Shown here piece by piece: positions 84 to 4,781 of a stretch of 5,672 bases of DNA. Under the pieces are notes generated by a model, which saw only the letters and a list, made by a program, of their open reading frames with translations, made no database searches and was not told the DNA's origin. The position numbers and the translations under genes were made by a program. Source of the stretch: Methanobacteriota archaeon (GTDB lineage: Archaea > Halobacteriota > Methanosarcinia > Methanosarcinales > Methanosarcinaceae); NCBI GenBank assembly GCA_030837265.1, contig JAUPKV010000116.1:1-5672 (forward strand). Reading direction: 5' to 3'. The number at the start of each line of letters is the position of its first letter. The first letter of the stretch is position 1.

Positions 84-213
84 CCTAAGTACCCGCAGCG
101 AAATAACTTAGGTGCTTTTTTATACTGTTCCTAAATATTTTCGCAAACGAGCTCATTGATTTAGTTAAAATAAATTGTGTTTTGCCGAGGTTATTTCGTT
201 ACGACTCCTAAGT
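84..213. repeat. 7-bp target-site duplication CCTAAGT
   Basis: Direct repeats CCTAAGT at 84-90 and 207-213 immediately flank the 91-206 insertion. Only one copy is needed to restore the transposase reading frame across the zinc finger, as expected of a duplication made on insertion. Confidence 0.7.
91..206. mobile_element. 116-bp MITE-like insertion with TIRs
   Basis: A small non-coding insertion inside the ISL3 remnant. Its ends, 91-112 and 185-206, are imperfect inverted repeats matching at 16 of 22 positions, with an uninterrupted nine-base core, CGAAATAAC (99-107) and GTTATTTCG (190-198). It is flanked by the direct repeat CCTAAGT at 84-90 and 207-213, consistent with a target-site duplication. 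Removing the element and one repeat copy makes the transposase read KFPCPKCGKPNCSADD, restoring the CPxCG zinc-finger motif, so the insertion boundaries are well supported. It encodes no protein, so it would have been moved by a transposase elsewhere in the genome. The family of that transposase is not identifiable from the sequence. Confidence 0.72.
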
Positions 214-805
214 GTGGTAAACCGAATTGCTCAGCTGATGATACTAAAGAAAAAAGGGCTGCAGCATATCGACTACTTTAAATACTCCACCTATTTGCAT
301 TGTAGAGTTCCGCGGTAAAATGTAGCATTTGTGGAATTCTCCAAATAGAGGTTCCATGGGCTCGTGAACAAAGTGGTTTTACTCTTCAAATGGAAACCAC
401 GATCCTGGAGCTGGCAAAAGAATGCCAGTATCACAAGTCGGAAACTTGCTTGGAGAGCATGATACGAGGCTATGGAGAGTTATAAAATATTATGTTGACA
501 AAGCAAGATCCAAAGAAGACTTTGCTGACGTAGTCAAGATTGATTTAGATGAAACTTCACGCAAGAAAGGACATGAATACATAACTCTAGTTGCGGTATA
601 AAATATTCTAAAGTGATATTTGCTTGTGAGGGTAAAGACTCGTCTACTGTTACCAGTTTTAGTGATGATTTGCAAAATCATAATGGAAATCCTAGCAATA
701 TTAAATCAGTATGTTATGACATGTCCCCCTCATATGTCAGTGGAATTTCAAAAGAACTTCCACAAGCAAAAATCACATTCGATAAATTCCATGTGATGAA
801 AGCGA

Positions 806-819
806 TGAATGAAGGAGTT
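806..819 (+). other. Intron target pairing sites IBS2 and IBS1
   Basis: These are the last bases of the left exon. IBS1 is GGAGTT (814-819) and pairs with the putative EBS1 AACTCT at 1116-1121 (five Watson-Crick pairs plus one G-U). IBS2 is TGAATG (806-811) and pairs with CATTCG at 1022-1027 (five Watson-Crick pairs plus one G-U). Order and spacing fit a group II intron target, and support 820 as the first intron base and the ISL3 gene as a genuine homing site. Confidence 0.55.
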
Positions 820-1014
820 GTGCGACAAGAAAGCTAAAGCATGAATTGCAGAAATGCTATCCCTTCCATTTGGGATAATCCTACTATAACACGTGTTGAT
901 GACAACGTCAAGATGTGAAGCTTATAGGACAATATGGGGAAATTTGGAAGTCTAATCTAAACTATCTGTTAGGATAAGAATACTATGAAGAATGTAATGT
1001 GAACCATTGTAAGA

Positions 1015-1029
1015 GTCGTAACATTCGAC
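1015..1029 (+). other. Candidate EBS2 hairpin in intron domain I
   Basis: A GTCG/CGAC stem (1015-1018 with 1026-1029) presents the loop TAACATT. Bases 1022-1025 in the loop pair with 808-811 of the left exon; extending to 1026-1027 would compete with the stem. A target-recognition loop upstream of EBS1 is the normal arrangement. Confidence 0.45.
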
Positions 1030-1115
1030 AAGTGAAATTAGACTGATACACTTGAACCAAAAGGTGAAGAGTCAGACCATTATGGCTTACTCTACGTAAT
1101 GGGAAATGGACAAAG

Positions 1116-1121
1116 AACTCT
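1116..1121 (+). other. Candidate EBS1 in intron domain I
   Basis: AACTCT is complementary to the six bases immediately left of the intron (814-819), with one terminal G-U pair. EBS1-IBS1 pairing defines the 5' splice site and the insertion target in group II introns. Its position about 300 nt into the intron is usual for this class. Confidence 0.5.
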
Positions 1122-1315
1122 CGGCTTATAGATGGCTTCTAAGGTATTCATAATTATTTATGCTATAGAACTTGGTAAGCCCTATATGTTCCCTACTGGG
1201 TAGGAATTTCGTAAGGAATAACAAAGACATAGAGGGTATAGGAAAGGAGTAGAAAGCGAATGACAGACTGTAATAGTCGTGTATAGGGGTTCAAACTTTG
1301 CCCTGATCTGAAAGG

Positions 1316-2965
1316 ATGCAAACTTACTCCACGGTATCGAAACGTAAGAATGGAAGCAGGACGATGAAAGTAAGTCCTTCAATTACGCTAGACGATGAAA
1401 CGGATAAACTTATAGGAAATCCATCTTCCTGGAACGAACACAAATGTGTCAGTTCCCACAACAAAGATATTACCAGCAAGAGTCTACCCGCCGAATCACC
1501 TATTGAGAAGCTTACTAACATACAACTAAAAACCAGTTGGACCAATATCGACTGGCATAAAATCGAAGAATGTGTTAGTCGTCTGCAAGTCAGGATTACG
1601 AAGGCAGTTATTCAAAAGAAACGGAATTTAGTCAAAAGGCTGAGCTATTTACTAACCCATTCTTATTATGCAAAACTATTAGCAGTAAGAAAAGTAACTC
1701 AAAATAAAGGCAAAAGAACAGCAGGAATCGATGGAATTCGATGGAGAACACCAGAAGCCAAGATGAAAGCTGCTCTCAGCCTAACTGATAGACAATATAA
1801 AGCCAAACCATTAAAAAGAATATACATTGAAAAATATGGGAAAAAGGAAAAACGACCCTTAGGCATCCCAACAATGTATGACAGAGCTATGCAAGCTCTC
1901 TACACATTAGCACTAAATCCATATGCTGAAGCCACTGCAGACTCTACATCCTTCGGATTTAGAAAATACAGAAGTGCACAACATGCTTGTGCAACTATAT
2001 TCAACAGGATCAGTAGAAAATGCGATGCACAATGGATACTAGAAGGAGATATAAAGGGTTGTTTCGACAACATCAGTCATGAATGGCTTCTGGATAACAT
2101 TCCAATGGATAAATCAATTCTAAAACAATTCCTTAAAGCAGGTTATGTTTCAAAGCATAACCTCTTTCCAACAAACTCAGGAACAACGCAGGGCAGCATC
2201 ATATCACCAATTCTGTCTAACATCACACTAGATGGAATTGAGAAAATACTTGATATAAAATATCACAGTAAAAACAATAAGATCAATTGCCGCATAGCTT
2301 CAAAATATCAGGTAAACTTTGTCAAATATGCGGATGACTTCATTGTAACTGCCAGAACCAAAGAAATTGCGGAAGAAGTGAAAATCCTTATTGGAAACTT
2401 CTTAAAACAAAGAGGGCTAGAACTATCCAACGAAAAAACACAAATAACCCATATAAACGATGGTTTTGACTTTATAGGCTGGAATTTTAGAAAATACAAT
2501 GGAAAACTCCTCATAAAACCCTCCAAGAAATCCACACAAAAGATCACTCGAGAAATCAGTGATGTAATCCGAAATGGAAAGACATGGACACAACAAGACT
2601 TAATAAATACTCTCAATCCAATTACAACAGGTTGGTCTAATTATCATCAGGGAGTAGTGTCCAAATCCATATTCAGTAAAATAGACAGCAGAATATGGAA
2701 CATGTTATGGAAATGGGCAAAGAGAAGACATCCACATAAATCCAAGAAATGGATTGCAAACAAATACTGGCAAACCATAGGAAAAAGGAAATGGGTATTT
2801 GCTAGTGGAAATATTCAGCTTAAATATCTATCAAACACAAGAATTATAAGAACCATACCTATAAAACTGGATAAAAATCCTTACCTAAATAAAGACTATT
2901 GGTTTGAGTATAAAACCAAAGAAAGAAACCGCAAACTAATGGGGATGTATAAAAGTATGGGGTAA
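1316..2965 (+). CDS. ltrA: Group II intron reverse transcriptase/maturase, endonuclease-less
   Basis: A 549-residue intron-encoded protein that helps the intron RNA fold and splice, and copies it into DNA during homing. The RT-0/N-terminal block WTNIDWHKIEECVSRLQ lies at about residues 75-91. RT motifs follow: KRPLGIPTMYDRAMQALY (179-196), the first catalytic Asp in EGDIKGCFDNISH (D245), TQGSIISPILSN (291-302) and KYADD (337-341, D340 and D341 being the metal ligands). FIGWNFRKYNGK and GWSNYHQGVVSK mark RT-7 and maturase domain X (about 386-460). A basic DNA-binding region follows (WKWAKRRHPHKSKKW, 466-479). It ends without the Cys-containing HNH endonuclease found in many CL proteins, so homing would need another primer. 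ATG 1316 directly abuts AAAGG; ATG 1364, after GCAGGA, is an alternative start, and the true start is unresolved. The frame is intact. Confidence 0.93.
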   Translation: MQTYSTVSKRKNGSRTMKVSPSITLDDETDKLIGNPSSWNEHKCVSSHNKDITSKSLPAESPIEKLTNIQLKTSWTNIDWHKIEECVSRLQVRITKAVIQKKRNLVKRLSYLLTHSYYAKLLAVRKVTQNKGKRTAGIDGIRWRTPEAKMKAALSLTDRQYKAKPLKRIYIEKYGKKEKRPLGIPTMYDRAMQALYTLALNPYAEATADSTSFGFRKYRSAQHACATIFNRISRKCDAQWILEGDIKGCFDNISHEWLLDNIPMDKSILKQFLKAGYVSKHNLFPTNSGTTQGSIISPILSNITLDGIEKILDIKYHSKNNKINCRIASKYQVNFVKYADDFIVTARTKEIAEEVKILIGNFLKQRGLELSNEKTQITHINDGFDFIGWNFRKYNGKLLIKPSKKSTQKITREISDVIRNGKTWTQQDLINTLNPITTGWSNYHQGVVSKSIFSKIDSRIWNMLWKWAKRRHPHKSKKWIANKYWQTIGKRKWVFASGNIQLKYLSNTRIIRTIPIKLDKNPYLNKDYWFEYKTKERNRKLMGMYKSMG

Positions 2966-3082
2966 AAAAAAAAAGTCGCAAAGTATCTAACTAAGTCTAT
3001 ACACATATACATTGCCACAAACAATTTTGCAATAAATTCTAATTAAATAACTGCCGCCCTACATACGGGTTATGAGATGCTT
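2966..3082 (+). other. Intron domain IV 3' segment
   Basis: AT-rich, non-coding intron sequence between the maturase stop and domain V. It opens with the rest of an 11-A run (2964-2974) that begins inside the stop codon. Near its end CCC and GGG flank TACATAC (3057-3069), probably the closing part of domain IV, followed by the linker into domain V. No cysteine-rich HNH remnant was found in it. Confidence 0.5.
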
Positions 3083-3116
3083 GAGCTGTATGAAGCCAAA
3101 GTTTCATGTACAGTTC
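3083..3116 (+). other. Group II intron domain V (catalytic core)
   Basis: Exactly 34 nt, the canonical length. The lower helix pairs 3083-3091 with 3108-3116 and includes the catalytic triad AGC at 3084-3086. A two-base bulge AU at 3106-3107 is in the expected place. The upper helix pairs 3092-3096 with 3101-3105. The terminal loop is CAAA (3097-3100) where the family usually has a GNRA loop such as GAAA. Everything else follows the consensus. Confidence 0.92.
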
Positions 3117-3119
3117 TTA

Positions 3120-3157
3120 GGGGAGAAAGGAGGAGTAATCCTCCCGACTTACCCGAC
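3120..3157 (+). other. Group II intron domain VI and 3' splice site
   Basis: A six-pair hairpin GGAGGA-GTAA-TCCTCC (3129-3144) sits on a lower helix pairing GGG (3121-3123) with CCC (3152-3154). A3151 is left unpaired seven nucleotides from the intron end and is the likely lariat branch point. The terminal bases GAC place the splice junction after 3157; a one-base shift cannot be excluded. Confidence 0.78.
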
Positions 3158-4032
3158 ATTCAAGTGATGCAACACCGGTTTATGTGTTTACGGAGCCAGG
3201 ATCTTATAATGTTAATCATGTTGCAATCAATGAGAACGGGACCACCACAAAAACTACTACGATAACCGTATTAGAGGAAAGCTCAAGTGCCGGAAACAGC
3301 GGTGGAAGTGGAGGCGGGAGTGGAGGCGGCTCACCTGAATCTCAAGGAAATGTTGAAACAAAAGAACTCTCACAGACATTCATTGGAAGTGGACAATCTG
3401 TTATTTTCGCTTTCCCGCAAAAAAACACACCTGTTACGAACATAAGCTTTGATTCGAAGAAGACAGCTGGCAAGATAACAACTATAGTTGAGATGCTGAA
3501 AGGAAAATCCACTCTTGTTTCGGAACCACCTTCGGACGAAATCTATAAATTCCTAAACATCTGGGTCGGAAGCAGTGGGTTTGCAACTCAAAAAAATATA
3601 GAAAATGCAATTGTGAATTTCAAAGTTGAAAAAACTTGGATAAACGATAGAAATATTGACAAGTCTTTCATTACTCTGAATAGATACAGTGACAAGAAAT
3701 GGAACCCGCTAACGACCTGTTTATCTGGTGAAGATGATAATTACCTGTATTTTACAGCAAAGACACCTGGATTTTCTTCCTTTGCAATTACGGGAAAGAG
3801 TACAGCAAGTACGAATGGAATAAAGCCTTCAGCAGATAAAACACAGCCAGCTGTAGATACTCAGAATAATACAAGCACTGGAAGTGCAGTAGCTAATGCT
3901 GTACAGACATCGGAGCAAACTCAAAACTCAAACAAGTCTGGAAAAGAAAATACAAAAATGCCTGGTTTTGAATTTGCTTCTGGTTTCATCTGCCTGCTTT
4001 ATATATTCTTATACAAAAAAATGAAATATTAA
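3158..4032 (+). pseudogene. PKD / PGF-pre-PGF surface protein, 5'-truncated
   Basis: C-terminal part of a secreted cell-surface protein. It enters in the middle of a PKD domain (SSDATPVYVFTEPGSYNV, then NENGTTTKTTTITV to about 3272), passes a Gly/Ser linker (GNSGGSGGGSGGGS, 3292-3333), then a PGF-pre-PGF domain (about 3352-3795, ending TPGFSSFAITG). A Ser/Thr/Asn/Gln-rich stalk follows, then a C-terminal MPGF motif, hydrophobic stretch and lysines (3958-4032), the PGF-CTERM signal that archaeosortase processes for lipid anchoring. The open frame has no lesions, but the signal peptide and upstream domains are missing because the intron and a transposase remnant now sit upstream. GTG 3184 could serve as a start but would give a protein with no export signal, and no ribosome binding site is evident. 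Probably a recently beheaded gene. Confidence 0.85.
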
Positions 4033-4430: not shown

Positions 4431-4781
4431 TTATTTTTCCTTCTCTTCTTCATCCTCAACATTCATGAATTCTTCGAAACATGTGAGACATATACATGTA
4501 TCGTCAGCAGATGTTTCTTTAAAGTCCACGACAGTACCACCAGGTTTTAGGATTCCCAGCCTTAACACGTATAAATGCTCACCAAATTCGATTGGCTGCC
4601 CACATCTCGAACATAAGAAGGGCGGATTCTCAACCGAATCAGTCGCACAATCGACGCATATCAGATCGGATTTATCCCCGTGAACATCCTTGAATTTAAT
4701 TAATTTCATTTCCTGGCTGGTATCGACGACCAGCACATCTTCCAGTAGTTCCCGGCCACATATATTACAAAATTCCTTCAC
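4431..4781 (-). CDS. Small four-CxxC zinc-binding protein
   Basis: A 116-residue soluble, acidic protein. Four CxxC pairs are visible: C5/C8 (CNICGREL), C42/C45 (CVDC), C57/C60 (CSRCGQPIEFG) and C98/C101 (CLTC), with an extra C96. Spacing suggests two zinc ribbons or treble clefs, each built from two CxxC knuckles. The tail is strongly acidic (EDEEEKEK). There are no membrane segments, signal peptide or catalytic motif. The start is GTG 4781, fixed by a strong GGAGG ribosome binding site seven bases upstream. No specific function is recognised. It could be a nucleic-acid- or protein-binding zinc finger, or a metal-binding accessory protein. It stands alone, convergent with the surface-protein fragment, and its codons look undamaged. 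Confidence 0.82.
   Translation of the reverse strand: MKEFCNICGRELLEDVLVVDTSQEMKLIKFKDVHGDKSDLICVDCATDSVENPPFLCSRCGQPIEFGEHLYVLRLGILKPGGTVVDFKETSADDTCICLTCFEEFMNVEDEEEKEK

Follow-up and report, generated by a model that had tools for sequence, protein, structure and literature searches.

Exon shuffling through recombining group II introns has been published for the cyanobacterium Thermosynechococcus elongatus, in which, according to Mohr et al. (2010; PMC2882425), the 5′ exon of one of the introns TeI4f and TeI4g and the 3′ exon of the other are segments of a single pseudogene. In Methanosarcina acetivorans, copies of nested group II introns are said in a review (PMC4424553) to have been deleted by homologous recombination. 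In bacteria, multicopy group II introns, some of them located inside IS elements, are described as substrates of ectopic recombination and rearrangement (PMC3522654, PMC5894124). As far as the available text of these two reports goes, such recombination is treated as a cost or a likelihood and not through a case of the type found here.

We analyzed a 5,672-nt stretch of archaeal DNA (hereafter, the window) in which a group II intron lies between parts of two genes. As with TeI4f/TeI4g, the exons are drawn from different genes; in contrast to that cyanobacterial case, the intron belongs to an archaeal family, is represented in the window by one chimera only, and carries a visible mosaic in domain I. 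The nested M. acetivorans introns of the review cited above include a relative from this archaeal family; however, those introns home into one another, whereas the window intron joins two unrelated genes. The intron-encoded protein (IEP) lacks an En domain, as do RmInt1-type introns (PMC5894124), but in the window intron the loss looks recent. To the few described group II introns that act as gene-shuffling crossover points, the locus contributes an example from archaea, accompanied by a reciprocal-looking pair in another genome. Its features are as follows.

206–819, plus strand: 5′ exon, decayed and frameshifted 5′ half of an ISL3 transposase gene (PF01610; 88% to L132)
807–811, plus strand: IBS2, GAATG (5 of 5 pairs with EBS2)
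814–819, plus strand: IBS1, GGAGTT (5 of 6 pairs with EBS1)
820–3157, plus strand: group II intron, 2338 nt (Rfam; ends from alignment)
820–1150, plus strand: domain I segment of an L103/L104-like lineage (95% to L103/L104; clade 100/100)
1022–1026, plus strand: EBS2, CATTC (identified by covariation with the 5′ exon across 57 copies)
1088–1093, plus strand: EBS1, TACTCT (covariation with 5′ exons in 24 copies, and again in 58 copies)
1151–1208, plus strand: inferred recombination break (maximum chi-square 33.3; 0 of 500 shuffles)
1209–3157, plus strand: remaining intron, other lineage (66 to 83% to L103/L104 by segment)
1316–2965, plus strand: IEP (Pfam; alignment)
2995–3039, plus strand: likely HNH remnant (comparison with L107)
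3081–3157, plus strand: domains V and VI (RF00029)
3158–4032, plus strand: 3′ exon, 3′ part of a PKD/PGF-pre-PGF surface-protein gene (profiles; G105 synteny)
4431–4781, minus strand: zinc-ribbon protein gene, convergent neighbor (75% amino acid identity in G105; weak Pfam zinc-ribbon matches)

The ends of the intron were set by aligning homologous copies, which placed its first base at 820 (GTGCGACAAG) and its final base at 3157 (..TTACCCGAC). Rfam models scoring above gathering identified the conserved D1 structure at 858–1017 (group-II-D1D4-7, RF02012; 55.8 bits) and domains V and VI at the 3′ end (Intron_gpII, 59.4 bits). The IEP of 549 amino acids combines a reverse transcriptase with a maturase, and its RVT_N, RVT_1, and GIIM matches were all above the Pfam cut-off. 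It has no HNH endonuclease domain at its C terminus, a domain that was seen in the relatives P0138, P0142, P0154, L103, L105, and L107. The stretch VYTHIHCHKQFCNKF at 2995–3039 is likely to be a remnant of the lost domain (compare ..AYTHIHCHRQYH.. in L107), and it is this remnant, together with the HNH-bearing relatives, that makes the loss appear recent. Judged by its predicted RNA structure, IEP domains, and EBS/IBS pairing, the element would qualify as a mobile group II intron.

The first-pass annotation had placed an ISL3 transposase against the left intron end and the middle of a PKD domain against the right end, and both assignments were borne out. On the left, DDE_Tnp_ISL3 was matched in 613–834 (E = 1e-18) and HTH_Tnp_ISL3, below the cut-off, in 383–598 (E = 2.7e-4); the closest DNA relatives of positions 206–818 were 88 and 86% identical. 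The window's own ISL3 half is frameshifted, and the transposase frame continued beyond base 819 in 15 of the 16 loci aligned out of 22 found (..GAAGGAGTC|AATGAAGTAAGG..), one of the 15 reaching a stop 13 codons past the joint. The one aligned locus degenerate at the joint, L151 in genome G086, was at first considered a parallel case, a second ISL3 stub broken off close to this position, and was rejected, as it reads as a degenerate ISL3 and has no intron match at the Rfam gathering score.

On the right, the 3′ exon opens with the end of a PKD domain (profile positions 48 to 80 of 80; E = 0.005, below the Pfam cut-off) and continues as a PGF-pre-PGF-type protein whose best relatives are 65% identical. 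The syntenic gene in genome G105 is a whole 661-residue ORF, within which the window junction maps to approximately residue 392, and the convergent zinc-ribbon gene adjoins the PKD gene there as well. Relatives therefore carry both genes uninterrupted through the junction points, as expected of intron-mediated exon shuffling, and the claim that one group II intron has exons from two unrelated genes stands. Among the collected loci, ISL3 was matched by the window's exon alone of 76 distinct 5′ exons, and PKD was matched by the window's exon alone of 113 distinct 3′ exons. When exons were joined in silico, both sides remained open for at least 30, 40, and 60 amino acids in 22, 17, and 15 of 44 copies (63 pairs minus 14 duplicates and 5 short-flanked ones), as compared to 28, 17, and 11% of mismatched joins; this is a weak control, because 12 of the 15 represent one ATPase-like site in gut Firmicutes. 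The window's exon join stays open for 35 amino acids, in a frame that is not that of PKD.

EBS1 and EBS2 formed 10 of 11 pairs with the ISL3 exon, with a T–T mismatch at position −1 in IBS1, and a fraction of 1.4e-4 of 517,018 sampled sites paired equally well. The IBS2/IBS1 site is conserved in ISL3 relatives (score of 9 to 11 in the 12 copies scored, out of 14). On the PKD side, 28 of the sites from 29 relatives scored 4 to 7 and one scored 9, these relatives being distant (47 to 61% identity), and the syntenic site in G105 scored 6. Because EBS1 and EBS2 fit the ISL3 exon and not most PKD-like sites, domain I probably arrived with ISL3 and the remaining intron probably with PKD. The pairing, being with the 5′ exon, also fits an ISL3 remnant that had previously come to lie next to the PKD fragment, for example through an earlier deletion, with a single later insertion of the intron exactly at the joint. 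We consider this improbable, as such a joint would have to match to the base a site conserved in ISL3 relatives and as it leaves the mosaic described below unexplained. No empty ISL3|PKD joint lacking the intron was seen in relatives.

Within the intron, domain I was 95% identical to L103 and L104, and the other segments were 66 to 83% identical; L103 and L105 were 86% identical in D1 and 86% in D2-3. The maximum chi-square of 33.3, which none of 500 shuffles equalled, placed a break at 1151–1208. The group of the window with L103 and L104 had a support of 100/100 in the D1 tree, and a clade of L103 to L108 excluding the window was rejected (p-AU = 0.0001). The tree path from the window to L103/L104 was 0.061 in domain I versus 0.58 for the remainder. 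Counting against a crossover, the same grouping was not rejected in the remainder tree (p-AU = 0.25; 0.054 for the IEP alone). The mosaic nevertheless indicates a crossover inside the intron, although it may have arisen before the exons were exchanged.

Taken together, we think that the chimera was probably made by a crossover between two variants belonging to a single family of archaeal group II introns, an ISL3 copy and a PKD copy. One variant, with a domain I suited to the ISL3 site, would have reverse-spliced into ISL3, and a second would have resided in the PKD gene. Homologous recombination near 1151–1208 would then have joined the two into the observed mosaic, with an inversion, deletion, or translocation as the outcome. 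Homologous recombination between an ISL3 copy and a PKD copy had been the initial proposal, and it remains the best reading in view of the mosaic, the EBS fit, and the chimera pair described below; its assumption that one and the same intron sat in both genes probably needs adjusting, as the parents look like different variants.

The same mosaic pattern would result if an assembler had passed from the ISL3 copy of the intron to the PKD copy through sequence common to both near the break, so that no such molecule exists. This is unlikely, yet it is the rival we take most seriously. Among the 15 best-scoring near-full-length IEPs (85 to 93%; two partial ones omitted), contig sizes were listed for 14, of which 10 had no contig longer than 1.8 to 3.6 kb, near the size of the intron, which suggests a repeat where assemblies end. 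The most conserved 60-nt window in the first 620 nt, 1122–1181, extends into the break interval from the left; however, it is barely more conserved than other stretches, and 1151–1208 itself is unexceptional (rank 265 of 562). Copies in other genomes are 69 to 96% identical to the window around the break, a level at which the parents need not have had a long k-mer in common. The similar GC content of the flanks (0.366 and 0.361) cannot tell one organism from two. Chimeras in metagenome contigs with multicopy introns thus need checking before they are believed.

Searches of 111 family genomes found neither a parental nor a reciprocal copy of the chimera, which counts against the crossover. The first-pass annotation had suggested looking for an intron in ISL3 with its own 3′ exon and for a PKD 5′ half at an intron copy; in these genomes there was no mismatch-free match to either ISL3–intron joint. 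Matches with one or two mismatches were about as many as for a reversed control pattern; of three one-mismatch matches in one ISL3-joint search, one corresponded to L104, the copy already known from G088, and the other two change the first bases of the intron. One intron-start pattern does not fit the starts of the window's intron, L103, or L104 and therefore says nothing about window-type introns. An earlier DNA search for parental copies scored two candidates per genome, and across 185 genomes of the order, again with two candidates scored in each, no long match to the IEP DNA exceeded 75%. In viral contigs, junction and intron-start patterns had 0 matches, and the IEP had two relatives (49 to 50%).

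A bacterial group II intron that trans-splices is treated in PMC6248898. By such an RNA-level route, a trans-spliced chimeric transcript containing the intron might have been copied back to DNA. We regard this as very improbable, since the PKD part runs into genomic 3′ surroundings that include the same convergent gene as G105 and that would hardly be expected in a copied transcript, and since the mosaic within the intron calls for a crossover.

If the crossover that scrambled the exons also made the mosaic, it would have built a new intron in which the targeting module of one lineage (domain I with EBS1/EBS2) is combined with D5-D6 and a reverse transcriptase lacking the endonuclease from another. 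These archaeal introns could then acquire new targets by recombining with one another, and such events would regularly contribute to genome rearrangement in Methanosarcinaceae. We offer this extension tentatively and regard it as doubtful, even if the domain I mosaic suggests that an intron may also be retargeted by crossovers of this kind.

A similar chimera pair was found in genome G070, in which the seven copies found from this intron family are all on a single 3.05-Mb contig, six of them differing by 0 to 1 bases. This argues against misassembly as the source of such structures, though a wrongly inverted segment would look alike. One copy (L260) has the arrangement X|intron|B, and another (L261), inverted and 26 kb away, has A|intron|Y. 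A|B is contiguous in L256, and of 32 loci examined, 18 (at 15 distinct places in 12 genomes) have X running directly into Y, so that L260 and L261 form a reciprocal-looking pair, though one that lacks clean target duplications. L256 to L259, the four copies with both element ends found, have perfect 8-bp target-site duplications; the A half (..GAAATAAC) and the B half show no direct match, and GAAATAAC recurs 31 nt farther out. No target duplication was seen by eye in six uninterrupted copies of the X|Y type, and X and Y have a common terminal inverted repeat (18 of 18 positions).

Alignment of homologous copies placed the ends of the group II intron at 820 and 3157, the same ends proposed in the first-pass annotation, which gives the following layout.

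Leftmost in the window, left of the intron: 5′ half of an ISL3 transposase, decayed
820–3157: group II intron, 2338 nt
Inside the intron: RT/maturase frame, open, 549 aa
Right of the intron: 3′ part of a PKD / PGF-pre-PGF surface-protein gene
Right of the PKD part, convergent: zinc-ribbon gene

Comparison with relatives shows that the two exons are parts of different genes, as had been proposed. The ISL3 frame runs on beyond base 819 in 15 of the 16 aligned loci (22 found). In genome G105, the zinc-ribbon gene adjoins an intact gene of 661 aa, whose product combines YVTN-like repeats with a PKD domain and ends in a PGF-pre-PGF-like C terminus (domain names assigned by eye). The junction corresponds to about residue 392 of this gene, and thus ~390 residues are absent from the window's PKD part. 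A further nine zinc-ribbon loci, including one shortened by a contig end, gave no PKD match; several relatives of the PKD part carry the name Methanosarcina. Because the ISL3 half stops at a codon boundary and the PKD half restarts at codon position 2, splicing would not join the two in frame.

The exon-binding sites were located by scanning for intron bases that vary together with the 5′ exon. At EBS1 (1088–1093, first detected in 24 copies), 80% of cells were paired across 58 copies, compared to 47% after exon shuffling; at EBS2 (1022–1026), the values were 83 and 40% across 57 copies. The window intron forms 5/5 EBS2 and 5/6 EBS1 pairs with the ISL3 exon, and this total of 10/11 was attained by 1.4e-4 of 517,018 sampled sites. 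In ISL3 relatives, the sites of the 12 copies scored (out of 14) gave 9 to 11; the homologous site in PKD relatives, obtained from 29 of 31 loci, scored 4 to 7 with a single 9, and that of G105 scored 6. On their own exons, the 57 scorable copies averaged 9.0, with seven at ≤4. By this measure, the targeting bases of the window intron suit ISL3.

We found that the similarity of the window's intron to the introns L103 and L104 (genomes G115 and G088) changes abruptly along its length: identity is 95% over 820–1180, 82 to 83% over 1181–1330, 68% over 1331–1600, 66 to 75% over 1601–2960, and 81 to 83% over 3040–3157. L103 and L105, in turn, share 86% in D1 and likewise 86% in D2-3. As the jump is present in the RNA domains alone, quicker change of the ORF is insufficient as an explanation. 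Maximum chi-square analysis placed the break at 1151–1208 (triplet with L107; left 45:2, right 164:157) and, in two more triplets, at 1125–1129 and 1162–1208, each with 0/500 shuffles. In trees of ten introns, domain I grouped the window's intron with L103 and L104 (support 100/100, path 0.061), while the remainder placed it outside L103–L108 with modest support (75/96, path 0.58), as did the IEP (91/97); a clade with L103/L104 was not rejected for the remainder (p-AU 0.25; IEP, 0.054). Over its final 90 nt, a short stretch, the intron shares 98% identity with L125 of G104. The comparisons with L103 and L104 show that the window intron is a mosaic. In G104, locus L264 (G104:C265) has several D5-D6 ends on one contig, as nested or tandem introns, and the end located at 3060 shares 98% identity with the final 90 nt of the window's intron.

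We favor, with some reserve, real recombination between intron copies as the source of the chimera. The two-copy recombination put forward in the first-pass annotation agrees with the mismatched exons, the mosaic, and the ISL3-fitting targeting; the intron copies it anticipated in an intact ISL3 or PKD gene did not appear among the exons of relatives. ISL3 among 76 distinct 5′ exons, and PKD among 113 distinct 3′ exons, occurred in the window alone, and a pattern search of 111 genomes for both ISL3-intron joints gave nothing over control level. This absence is weak, because in that Methanosarcinaceae family set (GTDB) each species is represented by a single genome and many of these are fragmented. 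The chief rival, an assembly chimera between two intron variants, would yield an identical mosaic; we consider it the less likely of the two. The best 15 near-full-length metagenome IEPs (85 to 93%) lie on contigs of ≤1.8 to 3.6 kb in 10 of the 14 cases of known length, as expected where a multicopy intron terminates assemblies, although short contigs are frequent in metagenomes regardless. The most conserved 60 nt of the first 620 (1122–1181, mean 81%) overlap the break interval on its left side; stretches elsewhere, however, are nearly as conserved.

Recombination between introns has precedents. In Thermosynechococcus, the exons of two introns were recognized as pieces of a single pseudogene, for which Mohr et al. 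2010 (PMC2882425) propose exon-shuffling homologous recombination. Parts of a 2015 review (PMC4424553) describe nested introns of Methanosarcina acetivorans balanced by homologous-recombination deletions, and sections of PMC3522654 and PMC5894124 regard recombination between copies as a source of instability. Thus, the process is already known.

Within the same family, genome G070 offers a comparable case. Its seven copies, found by start-pattern search, all lie on a single contig of 3,053,834 bases; six have a length of 2164 nt and 0 to 1 base differences, and the seventh, L256, is another variant. L257, L258, and L259 sit inside an IS-like transposase; its two halves, A and B, match, and the 8-bp target duplications are perfect. 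L255 retains just ~15 nt of B. The remaining two, separated by 26,089 bases, carry mismatched halves.

2,912,449–2,914,612, + strand: intron of L260, arranged X, intron, B
2,940,702–2,942,865, − strand: intron of L261, arranged A, intron, Y

Halves A and B adjoin each other in L256. When X and Y were joined by script, the composite matched a single uninterrupted element spanning the joint in 18 loci out of 32 (15 distinct places, 12 genomes, G070 among them); in two of these, the match extends just 11 and 24 nt beyond the joint. The terminal inverted repeats of X and Y match 18/18. By arrangement, L260 and L261 are the product pair that an inversion would leave, through a crossover between intron copies in opposite orientation; a segment inverted by assembly error in the contig would be the alternative. 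Clean target duplications of the recombined halves were looked for in G070 and none was found. Among the papers listed by a narrow search of the open literature, none reported this archaeal pair or a swap of domain I. Over 300 nt, L261 shares just 79 to 82% identity in its A half with L257, L258, and L259, of which L257 resembles L259; as the introns are near-identical, they entered diverged IS copies recently.

Other genomes showed further arrangements. G029 carries four twintrons (L251–L254), in which an 829-nt intron that could not accommodate an RT gene lies 158 nt into a related intron; their 5′ exons are near-identical, as are their 3′ exons, so any shuffling among them would be invisible. 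In G034 (L189 and L197), two intron starts are likewise 158 nt apart. In L122, L126, L128, and L129, each from a different genome, the 5′ exon is shared and ends in ..TTTCCGCAG or, with a slight variation, in TTCGGCAG (L129), possibly a conserved target; the downstream sequence differs in the three with 3′ ends read. Related introns of gut Firmicutes (L005–L012, L015, L018, L025, and L046) occupy one conserved site (DPE.E/Y, slash marking the insertion) in an ATPase-like gene (type by eye), with matching exons in 12 copies.

Last, the region 2966–3060 shows that the window IEP has lost the HNH endonuclease, apparently through an internal deletion, with a likely remnant, VYTHIHCHKQFCNKF, at 2995–3039. 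Three HNH-bearing relatives have IEPs of 589 to 597 aa; among the best 15 metagenome IEPs, 14 measure 533 to 558 aa and one 600 aa, and HNH is absent from all four that were aligned. This perhaps reflects a recent endonuclease-less clade that is still spreading.
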